In this document: piece by piece, positions 52,661-61,317 of the stretch
Position numbering within the stretch: position 1 is the stretch's first letter
Layout of the letters: the number at the start of each line of letters is the position of its first letter
From: Rhodosporidiobolus odoratus
Lineage: Eukaryota > Basidiomycota > Microbotryomycetes > Sporidiobolales > Sporidiobolaceae
Reading direction: 5' to 3'
Length of the DNA stretch: 64,000 bases
NCBI GenBank assembly: GCA_034387635.1
Contig: JAOANU010000006.1
Coordinates: 186,001 to 250,000 of the forward strand
The notes under the pieces: generated by a model
What the model was told of the DNA's origin: nothing
What the model saw: the letters and a program-made list of their open reading frames with translations, nothing else
Databases searched by the model: none
Translations under genes and position numbers: made by a program

Positions 52661-55103
52661 ATGTCCGACGATGACTTTGTAAGCCAGCTTGGCTCCTCCG
52701 ATGCCTAGCAGCAGCGATACTGACGACTTCGTTCTCCTCCTCCAGATGATGGATGAGGATGAGGTATGTGGCTCTGCAGCTTTGTGCGAGCCATCAAGCC
52801 CGCTCATGGCACCTTTACTATACGCCCCGCCTCCTTGCTCACCGCCCTCGCGCTGTTCGACCTGCTCTTCCTTCCCCACCCATCCGACTACTGTTTTCGA
52901 CTTCATCAGGACTACGGCTTCGAGTACGAAGGATCAGACAATGAGGAAGGCGACGTGGTTGATGTTGAGAATGAGTACTATACGGCCAAATGTGCGTCTT
53001 TCCATCTCTCGCCTTCTCCTTCTCGGAGAGGCTGATCCTCTTGCTCACCTGTGCCTGCCGTCTCTCGACTTATCCGCACACCGCGCTCGTGTCTGTACTC
53101 ACTTATGCACGAGCAGCTCAACGTGATACGCCCGATACGGCGCTAGCCTCTTTTCAGAAAATCGTAGACGACGAGGCATCACGCAACGAGCAAGGCGAAT
53201 TCGGCTTCAAGGCTCTCAAGCAGATGACCAAACTCACCTTCAGGCTCGCACGATACGACGAAGCGCTATCCTACTACAAGACATTGCTTACCTACACCAA
53301 GAAGGCCGTCACGAGGAACGTTGCGGAAAAAGCTATCAACCGCGTGCTGGATTACGTTAGCGCCGAAGAAGGGATCGGATTGGACAAGATGCAGGAGTTC
53401 TACGAGGTCACTATGAATGCGCTGGAGGAACAGAAGAACGACGTACGCCCCTGTGCTTTCTCCCTTCGCCCTCCTTGTTGCTGACGGGCTAGATTTTCCT
53501 TCGCAGCGTCTGAGCACAAAAACAAACCTCAAACTTGCCAAGCTGTGGCTGGATAGGCACGAGTATAACCGGCTGACAAAGGTGCGTGGCTATCTTCCGC
53601 CTGGCATTTCGAAAAGCTGGCGACTTACCCGTTGATCCGATTCCGCCACAGATTATCAAGGAACTCCACGCTCAGTGCGCTCCGACAGACGACGGCGCGG
53701 ACGTTGACTCGTCCAAGGGAACCACGCAACTCGAGGTGTACGCGCTGGAGATTCAGATGTATGGGCAAATGAACAACAACAAGAAATTGAGGGTGCGTCT
53801 TCTGTCGCTCTCGTAGCCCACATCATCTTCCCGACATTCTATTAACGGACTCGTACTGACTCGACATACGATTGTGCCTGCGCAGGAAATTTACGAGAAA
53901 TCGCTGCGCGTCCGTTCAGCCATTCCTCATCCTCGGATCCAGGGTGTAATTCGCGAGTGCGGTGGCAAGATGTACATGTCAGAGAGTGCGTCACCCTCCT
54001 CGCCGCCTCTCTCTGCCGGGCTCTGCACAGCATTCACTGATGCTTACCCGACCCCTGCGCAGAGGACTGGACGAAGGCCCAGGTCGACTTCTTCGAGGCC
54101 TTCAAGGCATACGACGAGGCGGGGAGCCCTCAGCGTATCCAAGTGCTCAAGTACCTCGTTCTCGCCCACATGCTCACCGAGAGTGAAATCGACCCCTTTG
54201 ACAGTCAGGAAACGAAACCGTCCGTCCTGCTTTCTTTCGCTCCCGCCGTATCTGCCGTAGTCGGTTCTCGCCCATACCTCCTGGACCTGGATGGGAGTTG
54301 CCTCCACCCACGCCACGAAGCTGATCATCCTCCGACACACAGGTACAAGAACGACCGCGAGATTGCAGCTATGCAAAACCTCGTACACGCGTACCAGCGC
54401 CGGGACGTGCACGAGGCAGAGAAGATCTTGCGAAGTGCGTTACTGGCCTTTCCCTTCCCCTCATCTTTGCTCGTCTGAGGTTCGTTTCTTTCCTTTGTTT
54501 AGCCAATCGCGAGACAATCATGGACGACCCTTTCATCCGCTTCTACATCGACGACGTTCTCCGGTCCCTGCGCACGCAATGGATCCTCGAAATAATCAAG
54601 CCGTACACACGTGTCGAGATCTCCTACCTAGCCAGGGTGCGTTTTCGGCCCGACGTTTTTTTGTTCTATTCCTATCTAGCGATCTATTGACACCATTCTC
54701 TGTGTAGCAACTCGGCATCTCCAACGAGCAAGTCGAAGAGATTGTTGTCGCGCTCATCCTTGACGAGAAGGTTCACGGTCGGATCGATCAAGTTACCGGC
54801 AGGCTGGATCTCGATAAGCAGTTCGTCTCCTCTTCGCCACCCTCTCATTCTCCCGCTGTTATTCATGTTCTATTCCCTGCCCGTAGTACCGCCGTCGAAA
54901 CGCGTCGGTATCAGACCCTCGACCGCTGGACTCAGCAACTTACCTCTCTTCACTCTCAACTGCTCACTAAATCCGCTCAAGCAGGAGCAGAACGCGGTGG
55001 ACCAGGTGGACCAGGTGGCGGCGCGGGAGGCTCCTCGCTGGCAACCTTCGCTGGGTTTGGAGGGGGATGGGAGGGGGTGGGTGGGAGGGAGATTTGGGCT
55101 TGA
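52661..55103 (+). CDS. CSN2: COP9 signalosome subunit 2
   Basis: Helical-repeat/PCI subunit of the COP9 signalosome, which removes Nedd8 from cullins. The first two exons are 18 nt each (MSDDDF, MMDEDE), followed by [20 protein letters not shown] and NEYYTAK, the same order as in animal CSN2. Further identity: [79 protein letters not shown] and the PCI end [20 protein letters not shown] ... [17 protein letters not shown] Gly-rich tail ([14 protein letters not shown]) is an extension beyond the usual end; it stops GGREIWA. Eleven or so introns, all phase-consistent. Confidence 0.93.
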
Positions 55104-55717
55104 GAATGGAGAGGGCAGAATGGGTTGTGTCGGATGTTGTGCTTGTTTCCCCCTTTCCCCACGCGTCTCGGGTCGTACCGCTGTGATATTTTCGCTTCCT
55201 CCCTGAACCATCTTTGCCGTACATCTCTCACCTTGCATGCAGTCCTTGATACCCCTGACCAAGCAAATAGTCGTTTTCCGTTCTCCCAATCTTGACCCCC
55301 GGCTGAGTCATATACGGAAGAGAGGACCAGGTAGTGACAGAAACGGTACTGTGCTAGATCTGCTGCTTGACTGGGAGGGGCGAGGCGACAGAAAAGAACT
55401 GTATAAGCTAAGAAGGAAGCGAGCATCACCGGCGTGAGGAGCCCTGTGGCCCTTTCACCCGAACCTGGGACGGGCGAAAGAGTCAGCCGTCGAACGCCAT
55501 CTTTCTTGAAGAGTGGGAAGGCGAACGCACACAACCGTCGCCGCCGAGGAACTCTGGTAGAGATCGAGAAGCGGAGCGATGTGGATCCGCCCGGGCACCA
55601 GAGGGGTCGTTTCTACGCGTCCTCTAGCTCAGGCGTAAGCCAAAAGGAAGAGCGGGAAAGTTACGTAAGCCTGTGCTCCAGGAAAAGAAAGAACGAGACA
55701 ATGGAGGGAAACCACCC
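55104..55717. other. Convergent 3' flanks, CSN2 / RGS-LOV gene 1
   Basis: About 610 bp. A minus-strand open frame covers much of it (55434-55534 reads KKDGVRRLTLSPVPG), which could be an extra 3' exon of the RGS-LOV gene because its paralogue ends with a related [11 protein letters not shown]. Not supported well enough to include. Confidence 0.35.
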
Positions 55718-58379
55718 TCACTTGCTCCCCTCGATTCTGATCTGCACCGAGCAAGGCGCACTCATCGCCACGGCCTGTTCAATCGCATTCTTGATCTTAC
55801 TCCTCAGCTCCTTCGTAGCTGAACTTGAAGGGTTAGGTGCATCGGGAGAGACGACGAGGTCGACTATTTTGCGGTGAATGAGGGGGGAACGGTCTACGTC
55901 GTCGGTCGAGGTGCCGGGGAGACCGAGGTAGCGGAGGAAGCCGGACGTGGTGAAGAGGATCTGGCCTAAAGGGATAGGGAATCAGACTTGCAGGTAAAGG
56001 AGCAGGAGGGAGAGGTACTCACCGTCACGTTTAACTACGAGAAGCTTGTCGTAGGTGGATTGCACGTCAAGCATCCGCTTCTGGAAAGGAAGCATAGATA
56101 ACTACGCTGAGGGCCCCGATGAGACGACTTATAGGGAACTTACCTCGATAGTCATCGTCGCGCTCACTTGCTGAGTCGGCGCCAGCAAAGGTCGATTTTC
56201 CTCCACGGGCTTCAGACTTGCTGTTGCCGCGCCCTTCCCACTCATCTTATCCTTCTTCTTCTTGCTCAGACCGAGCGCAGCCGTGGCATGTCTCTTCAAC
56301 GCAGCGAGCGACTTGACCCCTCCCTCCTTCTCACCTTTCTTACTCCCGTCCGGGGTGGCGCTCAAGGTTCTCCCCTTGCCAGTGACAGCACTAGCTCCGC
56401 TCATTGCCGAAGCTTGACGAGACGCTTCAGGAAATGGTGTGGCGGGCACCTCGACGATGGAAAGGTCCGGTCCAGCTTCGCGGGCTTCGACTTGTACGGC
56501 GGGTGAGAATGAGGTCATGTCCACGGCGAGGGCTTCGTCCTCCGGGAGAATGAAGGAGAGGTCGCTGCCGGTTGTCATTGCGCGGGTGAGGTCGGTTTGG
56601 CCTGTCTCGAAGCAGCAGAAGGGGAGGAAGAGATGGAGAGTGTCAACGGGTCATTTGCCGGAGTCTGTGCGGAAATCGAGGGAGGATGAAGCGTACCACC
56701 GATGAAGTAGGTAAGCTGACCGCTGTGAGTATGCTCGAAGGTCAGCAACTGATGAAAGGGGAGCGAGGACGCAAAGGAAAGATCGACAAAGAACGAACGA
56801 AAGGTCTCGAAGCGGGATGATGTTAACCTATAACGATGAAGGCAGGTAATCAGACGCAAGACCCAAGCAACACTGCTGAATGGAGCAACGGCGCACCATG
56901 TTGATGAAAGGCTCGCCCGAAGCGCGATAGTTCAAGACGACTTGGGTGATTTCCTCAGCTTTCTCAAGTCGATCGCGAATGCTGTCGACGCTCTGCGGAG
57001 ACGTAGCTTTGCCTTGAAGGAAGCTGAGTAGATGAGACCCAGCGCGGTCAACCGATGTTAGCATAAGCGGTCAGGGAATCAGGCCAGAGTCTCGATTGAG
57101 AAGGCCAAACTCGACAGAAGAAGCGAGCTTACCGACAGTTCCTACCGATGATTTGGTTCGCAGTGTAGCCCTACGGGACCCCCCGGGACGATGGCTCAGC
57201 CTCGAGCACGAGTGGATACAGACTGGAGAAGAAGTAGAGAGGGCAAGAAAGCGCACCGTGAGCTCGCAGAACCCAGGCGAGACCAGCACAATAGGGTCGT
57301 CGGCGAGGCGCCTGCATGACAATAGATAAGAGGACCAATGCGTGCGAGCGTGGAAAGAGAGGATAACATACGGGTTGGTGACGACGTAGGCGGAGCCGAT
57401 TCCGGATCTCCCTCTGTCCTCCGCCGAGAGGTGATAGCGAGATAGCTGCGCCTTGGTGTGCTTGAGAAGGCGGTGACGGACGACTGGAAGAATGTGACGC
57501 AGACATGTGCTTGAGCGAGACGACGCAGGATCATACAAGAAGAAGAGAATGCGCGTACAGTTGTCAAAGTCGCGCGAATACAGCGACTGGAGTAGATGCT
57601 TCGATGGCGTGTCGAGACCGGGGACCGCTTGCGTGGCCGTCGTCAAGCCCTTCACCAAATCCTTGACAACGTTCCTTGGCATCTCGACCCTACTCGCGCT
57701 ATCCTCTTCAAGGTAAACATTATTCATCCCCTTAGCCGCCAACCCCGCCTGCTTAAGCAAAGTAGAAAGGACCTTTGTATCCTTCCACAGCTCGAGTTCG
57801 CAGACAGATTTGCCAGCGGGTTCGATGGAGGTGAGGTAGCTGTGGAATTGGGCGTAACCTATGGGAGTGCAGAGGAAGGCGTTGAAGCGGGGGAGGGAGA
57901 GGAGGCGGGCGAGGGTGTAGGAGATGGACGCTTGAAGGGGGCTGAGGGTAATGTTGAGGCTGGGAGCAGGCAGGCTATTAGCATGAGGGGTAATTAGAAA
58001 TAGGAGGGAAACGTACGGTCTGGACGTGGTGCCTTTGAGCACGTTCTGTTTGTCGCCGGGCATATTGGACTCGGACGCTTGCGGTAAATGGGGCATTCCG
58101 CTCGGAGGAAGCTGCTCGAAAGGTGGAGCATCGGGCGCCCAGGTATCGAGGTCGTCCGGGTGACCGTTGGGAGGAAGCGGGTGAGTGGGGCGCTCTGCAG
58201 TGAGCATTGTTCGGGCACATCGTCAATACACCGACTGGGAGAAGATCCGAAGCTTATGAAACATAGAAAAAAGGCTGACCTTGGTGAGAAAGGAGTCCCT
58301 CAAGAGGCTCGTCCGAGTGACCATCGATCCCATTCGCCTTGGTGTGGAGTTTGTCCGGCATACTGCTACTACTCGCCAT
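55718..58379 (-). CDS. RGS-LOV blue-light photoreceptor, copy 1
   Basis: Soluble signalling protein of roughly 650-700 residues. First exon MASSSSMPDKLHTKANG; then an RGS domain (SPLQASISYTLARLLSLPRF ... LLQSLYSRDFDNFVRHRLLK). A LOV domain follows: [41 protein letters not shown] with the photoactive Cys in GRNCRFLQG, flavin contacts VVLNYRASGEPFINM and NIIPLRD, and YFIGGQTDLT with the signalling Gln. The linker has a polybasic amphipathic stretch (56234-56317). The C-terminal conserved domain reads GQILFTTSGFLRYLGLPGTS. Introns interrupt the LOV exon at T|GY and R|FLQG, all phase-consistent. The stop after RIEGSK is the first in frame, but a GTGAGG donor overlaps it, so a further exon is possible. 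Confidence 0.85.
56234..56317 (-). other. Polybasic amphipathic segment in copy 1 linker
   Basis: Translates to KSLAALKRHATAALGLSKKK followed by KDKMSGKG. Hydrophobic Leu/Ala alternate with Lys/Arg/His, a composition suited to binding acidic membrane lipids. In the RGS-LOV protein BcLOV4 an amphipathic helix in the same place (after LOV, before the C-terminal domain) binds anionic phospholipid in light. The equivalence here is inferred. Confidence 0.5.
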
Positions 58380-58956
58380 CACATAGAATGTCAAAGGATA
58401 AGGTTGGGAAGAAATGAGCAAGAAAGACCTAGTGCGCCCAATCTCGTTGACGGTCTGCGAATGGTGGTCGCCGTTCATTCCGTCACTCTGCTTACCAAGC
58501 GTCATACTCCACTTGTCAAGAGTGCAATGTTGCGAGACAGGATAAGCCAAGGATAAGCGACGAGTAGGCGACGTTCGCACCGCCGCCTTCTCTCAGGTTC
58601 TCTTTCCTGAAAAAATGAGGTCGGGGTCGTCAAACCTGTGAGCTGCAACTAGGGCAGGAACGTTCGGACCTCCGACTCGCAGTAGTGTAGCCGAGGAGAG
58701 GAGCTCAGGAGAGATGCGCGTTCGGAGAAGCTAAAAGCGGACTTGGCCTTCTCAGACGGTTGTGGCAGCGGCGCTGCAGCGGCTTGTGGTCGATGGGACA
58801 AAGCAGAGTATACTCGGTGGATACATAACGATGCTGGTGATGATATGTGGCTACAATGTAGGGAGAGTGGAGGATGGGAGTTATGCGAAACTGCAAGGGA
58901 GTATCCAGGTCAGCCTGATCGGACCGGCGCCAGTACAGCAGGAAGATATAAGAAGC
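58380..58956. promoter_or_regulatory. Spacer between the two RGS-LOV genes (promoter of copy 1)
   Basis: About 577 bp between the copy 2 stop and the copy 1 start. No repeat of flanking sequence or mobile element footprint was seen. GATA-like sites occur, as expected by chance. Confidence 0.4.
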
Positions 58957-61317
58957 TTACATAGCTATATACACGACGCTCTTGCCATCGTAGTCTTGTA
59001 CAGGGGTGAGATGCAACACTCCTCGAGCAGTCGGGGTCGGAGCGATTTTTTCACTGTAGGAAACCTCGTAGAGTTAGCTGACATGCCGACATCCCGATGT
59101 GCGTACCGAGTTGGAGGAAATCACACTCACAGCAATCCCTTCTTCTGTTCCACCCTAATCCCACACTCGACGCTTAAACTCTTCCCACCCTCCACAGTCC
59201 CCTTGACGAGCTTTCTCAATTCGGCCGTTTCTTCTTTTTCTTTCCCGCCGGCAGTACCAGGTGTTCGGATCAAGTCGAGGAGATCCACACCGAGTAAGGG
59301 GGACTTATTGACTTCTTCTTCGGATGTGCCGGGAACGCCGATGTATCGAAGGAAGGACGAGGTGAGGTGCAAGATTCGGCGACCTGCGCGGAACGAAGGA
59401 CAAGACAGCGTGAGTGAGCCGTCACAGATCGCGATCAGGAGAGGGCAAACGAACCTTCAGCCCGAATGACAGCAACTCTCTCATAAGTCCCCCTAAACTC
59501 CTCGACCCTCCTCTCGACCGTCCCCTGCATCATACTAATCCTCTTGGCTTCCTTCTTCTCCCTGTCTGCCCCCGTCGAGCCCGAGTCAGAATCGATACAT
59601 CCTGTTGTTTTATGCCCGCTTCCTCCTCCTCCTCCGAACCGGAGGATATTGCCAAAAGAGGGAGAGACCATCGTACGGCCTGAACGTTTTTGACGTGGTG
59701 ACTCAATGTCTGAAGGGGCGGGGAAAGAAAGGACTGGGGTGGTAGGAACCGCAAGGGAGGGAGTGGTGGAATTGGGGATGGAACCGTTGCTGGACAGAGA
59801 GGGCGAAGCTGAGTCGCTCGTGGTCGGGTCTGGCTGCTCAGAGAAGGTCGTTGCCGCTCGTTGCACGGATGTAGAGAATTTTGGGAGGTCGGAGGACAAG
59901 GATGCGTGAGAAAAGACGTCGGAGAGGTCGTCTTCGACGTCAGGTGCGCTTGAACCGGGAGCGGCGGAGGGGAGCATGAGACCCGAAGACGCTGTGAGTG
60001 CGCCGGTAATATTTGTTTGACCGCCTACACACGACATGAGAAACGTGAGCGGACTTTACGGAAGGCAAGGTGGAAGGTACGTACCGACGAAGTAGGTCAG
60101 CTCGCCATGGGGTGAGAAGACAGGGATAATGCAGAGAAGGTTGAAGAAGGGTTGTCCGTCCTTGGTATAGTTGAGCAGCAGCTGAGTAACGCCTGCGCAT
60201 TCCACGAATCAGTTTTCAAGCCCTTGGTATCGATCATCGGAAACAGCAACGCACCCTCCCTCTTCCGAATAGCATCTTTAATCGCAATGACGTCTGCCGG
60301 GCTCGTAGCTTCCCCTTGCAAGAATCGACAGTTCCTCCCGATGATTTCGCTTCGGTCGTAGCCAGTCAAGCTGCAGAATGCAGGGGAGGCCAAGACGATC
60401 GGCTGGTCTGGCAAGCGAGGGTTGGAGAGGACGAAAGCTTCGCCGCTATGCGATAGGGGGAAGGTATGTAAGAGTTAGCATGCGACGGCGGCAGGAGCAG
60501 CTGAGAGCGAACGTACAGCCCGCCGACGCTTTCAGCCGGCAATTCACGTTTTTCAAGCTGCAGCTTGGTGTGCGCCAGCAACTTGTGCTTTACGTAACTG
60601 CACGTTACAGGTACAGCATACTTGCGTCCATCAGCTAACTCGTCAGCGAAGCGACGAGAGAGCAAGACGCACCCTTCGAACTCCCCTTCATACAAGTTTT
60701 CCAGCAACCTCCTGGCGGTCCCGTCCAACGCCGTCCTCCCATCCATGACTTTTCTCAGTCCCTCGACCGCCTCTCGCAGTTCCTTCCCACCCATTTCAAC
60801 ACTCTCTTCTGCACCAGGCAACAAGTACACATCCCTGATCCCCCTCGCAGCGGCAGCCGCATCGCCTGTCAACTGTCTCAATGCAAGAGCATCGATGTAC
60901 AGTCCTAGAGTGGGGAGGAGGGGTGAATGAAAAGCGGTGAGATAGCTTTTAAAGGCTTGTAATCCGGCGGGATGAGTGAGGAGACGAGCGAAAGAAGGGA
61001 GGGAGAGTAAACGGGAGAGGGAAAAGGTGATGCTGCTTTGTAAAGGGGAGGGGTGGGAGTTGGGATTCGAAGTGCGGTAGGAGGAACTGCGGTGAGTATG
61101 GTCTGGAGCGGAGGGGAGATGGAGGCTTGATGAAGCGGGAAGTGGTCGAGGATGAAGAGGTGCCCAATCGTTCGAATTGCGAGGTGAATCGATCCGTTGC
61201 TGCACGTCACTAGTCAGAACACTCTGGTAGGGTCTCTTCGGAAACGCTACTCACTGGAGGGCTTGACGAGCGCACTTCGTCTCGAGGTCGAAGGGGAGGC
61301 AAGTCGGATGTGGTCAT
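58957..61317 (-). CDS. RGS-LOV blue-light photoreceptor, copy 2
   Basis: Paralogue of the adjacent downstream gene in the same order. Start [23 protein letters not shown] domain with [20 protein letters not shown] ... [23 protein letters not shown] domain [77 protein letters not shown]. The photoactive Cys and the Gln are both present. A long Ser/Thr/Pro-rich acidic linker includes a basic patch (59636-59701), then a charged helix [20 protein letters not shown] and the shared C-terminal domain [20 protein letters not shown]. The last exon gives [19 protein letters not shown]. In this copy the GY...GRNCRFLQG stretch is uninterrupted by introns, unlike copy 1. Confidence 0.87.
59636..59701 (-). 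other. Basic segment in copy 2 linker
   Basis: Reads [20 protein letters not shown] then RF; basic residues followed by aromatic/aliphatic ones. It is weaker and shorter than the copy 1 segment. A membrane-binding role is inferred from position only. Confidence 0.35.

Follow-up and report, generated by a model that had tools for sequence, protein, structure and literature searches.

Two genes, here called A and B, lie next to each other on the minus strand of a 64,000-nucleotide stretch (the window) of the genome of Rhodosporidiobolus odoratus, a Sporidiobolales yeast with an assembly of 24.8 Mb in 45 contigs. Both genes encode an RGS domain, a LOV domain, a linker and a conserved C-terminal domain, in that order. 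The RGS-LOV family, together with BcLOV4 of Botrytis cinerea, was reportedly described by Glantz et al. in 2018. With slightly more confidence than doubt, we interpret A and B as old paralogous blue-light receptors, of which B would keep light-driven membrane recruitment while A has diverged, and in which the RGS domain is likelier a module other than a GTPase-activating protein (GAP). The gene structures were rebuilt from GT-AG sites and the ends of orthologous proteins, and the genes are arranged head to tail, with A upstream and B downstream, as follows.

58881..61317, minus strand: gene A, 9 exons, 631 amino acids; GT-AG splice chain, one open frame
61317..61255, 61199..60673, 60597..60517, 60445..60255, 60192..60085, minus strand: gene A, exons 1-5
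60024..59455, 59383..59131, 59053..58961, 58890..58881, minus strand: gene A, exons 6-9
58380..58880, no strand: spacer of 501 bp from the last exon of A to the ATG of B
55455..58379, minus strand: gene B, 14 exons, 642 amino acids; GT-AG splice chain
58379..58280, 58194..58017, 57959..57559, 57483..57372, 57311..57257, 57170..57133, 57023..56897, minus strand: gene B, exons 1-7
56827..56799, 56722..56697, 56601..56144, 56080..56023, 55965..55722, 55623..55531, 55464..55455, minus strand: gene B, exons 8-14

All introns are of the GT-AG type (55-77 nt in A, 57-109 nt in B); two of the eight gene A introns coincide with gene B introns in both position and phase, while another is shifted by one codon. 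The two proteins share 35% identity over 647 columns (E 1.4e-103), indicating two homologous genes rather than chance frames. A protein search assigned P0001-P0005, P0007-P0011 and P0013-P0015 as orthologs of A, and B matched R. odoratus JCM11641_005281 (P0087) with 98% identity across 95% of the query. The orthologs in R. nylandii had identities of 59% (A) and 65% (B). Given the intact splice chains, the domain matches and this homology, the first-pass annotation was right to place here two adjacent same-strand genes, each encoding RGS, LOV and a conserved C-terminal domain, and A and B are confirmed as real tandem genes of the minus strand, as predicted from the sequence. Of the span then proposed, the high end at 61317 is the start codon of A, whereas the low end at 55718 resulted from read-through of a donor site. 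Gene ends at 59127 (A) and 55718 (B) were accordingly rejected, since both read through donor sites and the true 3′ ends are longer. Orthologs of A end in VAYVAIFA-like and those of B in SAVTVVFG-like residues, and the corresponding terminal exons exist in the window: A continues beyond 59127 through exons 59053..58961 and 58890..58881, and the last exons of B (55623..55531 and 55464..55455) encode the ortholog-like GRIHIAPLLDLYQSSSAATVVFG.

The domains were located as follows.

60540..61046, minus strand: RGS domain of A, residues 73-216; Pfam RGS E 0.0031, below the cut-off
60002..60444, minus strand: LOV domain of A, residues 225-331; GRNCRFLQ at 60339..60316
58884..59518, minus strand: conserved C-terminal domain of A with its leading helix, residues 493-631; PAS-like predicted fold in the model of ortholog P0001
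57428..57940, minus strand: RGS domain of B, residues 100-245; Pfam RGS E 0.0023 (domain alone 0.00091), below the cut-off
56582..57397, minus strand: LOV domain of B, residues 256-362; GRNCRFLQ split by an intron, 57146..57014
55458..56149, minus strand: conserved C-terminal domain of B with its leading helix, residues 507-642; PAS-like predicted fold in the model of ortholog P0088

The LOV domains matched Pfam PAS_9 above the cut-off (E 5e-19 for A, 1.2e-19 for B) in scans that used earlier gene models without the last exons. The LOV profile of the family aligned to oat LOV2 without gaps (E 3.7e-49), and the RGS-LOV family thus appears to lack the LOV insertion of the WC-1 type. White collar proteins such as WC-1 combine a LOV domain carrying a fungal insertion with a GATA finger. 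Membership of A and B in that group was rejected on the absence of the insertion and of any GATA family among their Pfam matches at E up to 1. Predicted models of the R. nylandii orthologs superposed on Arabidopsis phot2 LOV2 (4eer) at 0.7 Å (B) and 0.6 Å (A) over 106 residues. The flavin-site residues considered comprise three in NCRFLQ (Asn, Cys and Gln), two other Asn contacts and the GGQ glutamine. All 15 A rows keep them, and so do the 22 B rows, apart from one in which Ser stands at the second Asn and another gapped at the last Gln. The cysteine is invariant across both sets, and A and B of the window retain every flavin-site residue checked. Of the residues beside the second flavin Asn, A keeps L in all 15 rows and C in 14 of them, while B is variable, with V and N in the window. 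In three RGS-LOV relatives from Microbotryomycetes (P0218, P0235 and P0237), CRMLAGP replaces CRFLQGP, so that the LOV glutamine is lost; P0237 additionally lacks the Asn preceding the Cys.

An FSPxVQ-like motif follows the LOV domain at 59890-59861 in gene A, where it reads FSTSVQ, and at 56521-56492 in gene B. A and B conserve this motif, which is looser across the remaining family. In the model of an A ortholog it forms a block with a predicted local distance difference test (pLDDT) value of 94 inside a mostly disordered linker; the value is lower in the B model.

Conservation of the domain after the linker reaches beyond A and B to other basidiomycetes, Rickenella among them. The domain likely has a PAS fold, judging from models in which the order of strands and helices fits PAS and the pLDDT is mostly high. 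In the Foldseek/VIA comparisons with Brucella LOV-PAS proteins, one alignment per model spanned the C-terminal domain (195 and 194 residues, against approximately 110 for LOV alone), at a root-mean-square deviation of 26-28 Å arising from superposition of the two domains together; another chain of that family, 6pps_C, aligned to LOV only. Comparisons of the C-terminal domain with Pfam, PDB sequences and hhalign gave no support for PAS (hhalign probability 1.2%), and the fold searches returned no RGS chain among the 50 matches listed, all of them taken up by LOV. The function of the corresponding domain of BcLOV4 is labelled unidentified in the available portion of a review (PMC8993538).

Although the RGS matches of A and B are weak singly, their membership in the RGS family is clear by profile search: a nine-member family profile retrieved RGS16 (E 2.6e-7), RGS9, RGS3, RGS4 and others from the PDB, and seven of the nine members matched Pfam RGS (best E 2.5e-12). 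The Gα contact asparagines, which we take to be positions 88 and 128 of RGS4, were located via the RGS16 alignment. They are replaced by T and E in window A and by E and E in window B. Across the family the residues vary widely, with Asn at each contact position in none of the 15 A rows and one of the 22 B rows. Among the other RGS proteins of this genome, the best match (C16, presumably of the Sst2 type) keeps both asparagines (DENLGFW, NELNID). These replacements speak against action as an ordinary Gα GAP within the light input into G-protein signalling that had been suggested at first, and the RGS domain of A and B more probably serves for packing or for binding a partner.

Two observations weigh against this view of the RGS domain. 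Both asparagines are likewise missing from C9, the second of the other RGS proteins (presumably of the Rax1 type), so their loss does not establish that an RGS domain is inert. In addition, MoRgs5, an RGS-PAS protein of Magnaporthe, is reported in the accessible parts of two papers to bind Gα (PMC10056346, PMC3248559), and G-protein binding by A and B is therefore possible. An alternative is that both proteins, with their RGS domains active, move to the membrane when lit and there switch off a Gα. The clear family membership and the higher cAMP of the mutant lacking MoRgs5, whose RGS domain is likewise combined with PAS/PAC (PMC3248559, PMC10056346), are in its favour, but the same contact positions (T/E in A, E/E in B) are highly variable in the family, and the Magnaporthe paper, in the text available, compares MoRgs5 to Mdm1, a protein with no established G-protein role (PMC3248559). 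We consider this alternative unlikely.

The pair is not limited to this window, a possibility rejected because A and B have consecutive locus tags in nine other genomes of Rhodosporidiobolus and Sporobolomyces (R. nylandii, R. microsporus, R. ruineniae, R. lusitaniae, R. poonsookiae, two of S. pararoseus, S. salmoneus and S. blumeae). Outside the window, both genes were found in 12 genomes, these nine included, and also in R. toruloides when its strains are taken together; wherever the two co-occur, they are in most cases still adjacent by annotation. The protein searches scored 7990, 7995 and 7991 candidates, and one of them gives the best 120 of 204 matches. Among the matches listed, B occurred without A in R. 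odoratus JCM11641 and six Rhodotorula species (R. araucariae, R. kratochvilovae, R. graminis, R. paludigena, R. pacifica and R. sphaerocarpa), in which A may be unannotated or missed, and A occurred without B in S. phaffii.

This adjacency could also mean that A and B act as one unit, as a heterodimer or a fused read-through protein. Besides the nine annotated genomes and the window, two deposited models agree with such a unit: a single fused A and B model in S. koalae (P0006, 1031 amino acids) and, in R. azoricus, an A model (P0003) that runs into the N-terminal region of B, with a partial B on another contig. The S. koalae model looks like a gene-prediction error, however, because part of the B LOV domain is missing from it. 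Moreover, the six Rhodotorula species have B without A among the matches listed, in S. johnsonii the tag numbers differ by 18, with equal lengths listed for the contigs, and in the window A has its own stop and B its own start. A single unit therefore seems quite unlikely. As for the two fused models themselves, both are probably prediction errors, possibly read-through.

Phylogenetic trees of 71 rows and, more carefully, of 39 rows recovered separate A and B clades, each with 100/100 support (P0006 was split in two for the 71-row tree, the residue counts and the linker scoring). Each clade spans Rhodosporidiobolus, Rhodotorula and Sporobolomyces, with R. toruloides as the sole Rhodotorula in A, and the nearest kin, from Leucosporidium, JL221, Meredithblackwellia, Phenoliferia and Pseudohyphozyma, fall outside both. 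Because both clades hold all three genera, the duplication is at least as old as their ancestor. The tree proposed at first for dating it thus gave a minimum age, and a recent duplication was rejected on the full support of the two clades across three genera. In the careful tree, Microbotryum grouped with B at 89/69; constraining A and B together cost 1.85 log units (approximately unbiased test, p 0.175) and grouping A with Microbotryum cost 0.83 (p 0.393), so that the trees allow the duplication to have occurred either before or after the Microbotryum split. RGS-LOV proteins had also been described as a sparse class; their presence in Wallemia, Mycena, Rickenella, Hydnum, Tilletia, Exobasidium, Mrakia, Mixia and Phakopsora contradicts this, and by these matches the class is widespread in Basidiomycota.

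The main contrast between the copies is found in the linker. In BcLOV4, a polybasic amphipathic helix between the LOV and C-terminal domains is speculated, in the available text of two sources, to bind lipid once light has exposed it (PMC8993538, PMC13137770). Each 18-residue stretch of the linkers, defined by alignment columns, was scored by hydrophobic moment and charge (score D). The formula and the mark of 1.34 are, we presume, those of HeliQuest. Two features of the window are relevant here.

56246..56317, minus strand: basic amphipathic linker segment of B, VKSLAALKRHATAALGLSKKKKDK, residues 451-474; best 18 residues D 2.22, charge +6
59633..59665, minus strand: linker motif of A, probably where relatives have the basic amphipathic segment (alignment by eye, in a linker of unsure alignment)

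Segments resembling VKSLAALKRHATAALGLSKKKKDK occur in the B orthologs, while Rhodosporidiobolus A proteins have SPSxxxLFKFG-like residues in the linker. With three short-linker rows left out of the alignment-column scoring (one B half-model and two others), median scores came to 1.21 for the 15 A rows, 2.22 for the 21 B rows, 2.25 for seven kin rows lacking the duplication and 1.81 for 21 other basidiomycete RGS-LOVs; a score of at least 1.34 was reached by 5, 19, 7 and 17 of these rows, respectively. A charge of at least +5 in 18 residues was found in 20 of the 21 B rows and 6 of the 15 A rows (+6 in window B, +4 in window A). B exceeded A in 12 of 13 pairs, in 13 of 13 without the proline rule, and in 11 of 13, with two ties, by greatest charge (Wilcoxon p 0.0007, 0.0002 and 0.001, respectively, for 13 non-independent pairs). 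Twelve of the pairs were each within one genome and one was across R. toruloides strains, and S. pararoseus was counted twice. In a shuffled-linker test, for which the linker was taken by regular expression (seven rows, two B and five others, had no linker match), the rows with p < 0.05 numbered 12 of 16 in B, 4 of 5 in kin without the duplication and 1 of 13 in A. The earlier expectation that the copies differ in the part thought to bind lipid was thus borne out, and in the simplest reading of these sequences a strong basic segment was ancestral and became weakened in A.

Several points count against giving this contrast full weight. The 13 pairs are not independent, and the R. toruloides pair mixes different strains. 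The segment is not universal: the shuffle test was passed by 3 of 6 other basidiomycetes and by none of one ascomycete, Cryphonectria, the only ascomycete RGS-LOV scored (1.37, p 0.20). In the window pair the contrast is smaller (A 1.64, B 2.22), with neither shuffle p significant (0.087 in A, 0.073 in B), and the best stretch of A (D 1.64, +4, p 0.087) adjoins the C-terminal domain. The linkers are mostly disordered in the predicted models, and the score is uncalibrated on BcLOV4, whose sequence stood outside the comparison.

If the linker differences were immaterial, A and B could simply be redundant copies of one receptor, maintained for its dosage. Their identical domain order, the same flavin-site residues and the non-significant linker contrast of the window pair would fit, but the copies split before the three genera did, share only 35% identity and differ in the same direction in 12 or 13 of 13 pairs; plain redundancy is thus improbable. 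That one copy is a pseudogene or annotation artefact is highly improbable, because although RGS falls below the Pfam cut-off in both and the genes are known here from sequence, the frames are intact over 9 and 14 exons and the R. nylandii orthologs retain 59% and 65% identity.

Under the favoured reading of A and B as old, diverged blue-light receptors, blue light would form a flavin-cysteinyl adduct and loosen the dark-state packing. In B, this loosening could expose the basic segment to anionic lipid of the plasma membrane, as reported for BcLOV4. A would sense the same light and bind the anionic membrane weakly or not at all, and might for that reason be mainly cytosolic or pair with B or another partner; the RGS domain would serve as a non-catalytic module. 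A more specific and doubtful proposal is a two-receptor module, in which A, having lost its electrostatic anchor, would be a soluble partner or competitor setting the gain or kinetics of B recruitment, and the tandem arrangement would keep the doses matched.

At least five LOV genes are present in this genome. A third RGS-LOV gene (L022; contig C10, 529000-536500) is unlinked to A and B and forms a clade with the Phenoliferia models RQP46_003706 and RQP46_003707, which have consecutive tags. Two more LOV genes, L024 (C12) and L023 (C22), have extra residues within the LOV core and are read, by eye, as WC-1-like. The first-pass reading of two light inputs consequently stands as to a diverged tandem pair with a difference in the lipid segment; it lacks support as a description of the whole set, given these three further genes, and so does action as an ordinary Gα GAP. 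The convergent neighbour of gene B (54708-55103, plus strand) encodes a PCI domain (E 2.8e-7) and matches COP9 signalosome subunit 2 (E 7.4e-6).

Little is known about what RGS-LOV proteins do in nature, even though BcLOV4 serves as an optogenetic tool (PMC8993538). Paralogs alike at the flavin site and unlike in the proposed membrane-binding segment constitute a natural experiment on that segment, and an A-type protein may supply an optogenetic variant that stays off the membrane. The class was already known; the conserved tandem pair and the linker asymmetry appear to be new here. In agreement with the first-pass annotation, which knew of no tandem pair, none was found described in the open-access literature searched, a weak negative as most subscription papers and two main RGS-LOV papers lie outside it.

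Among known systems, BcLOV4 matches A and B in its domain order (RGS, LOV, linker, C-terminal domain) and has, like B, a basic amphipathic linker segment, which is the proposed light-dependent binder of anionic lipid in the text available (PMC8993538). In contrast to BcLOV4, which was compared by description rather than alignment, A and B are two diverged side-by-side copies in a basidiomycete yeast, the A lineage seems to have lost most of the basic amphipathic character, and A and B are known here from their genes. MoRgs5 of Magnaporthe oryzae, likened by description, also has an N-terminal RGS domain followed by PAS/PAC (PMC3248559) and is named an RGS flavoprotein (PMC10056346); according to the portions available, its deletion causes no apparent growth phenotype and raises cAMP (PMC3248559). 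The closest parallel in arrangement is found in Phenoliferia psychrophenolica, where RQP46_003706 and RQP46_003707 (P0241 and P0240) are two RGS-LOV models with consecutive tags, their adjacency being based on these tags and on contigs of equal listed length. Unlike A and B, they belong to a different subfamily and are kin of the unlinked third gene L022, and this pair would therefore have arisen independently of A and B.

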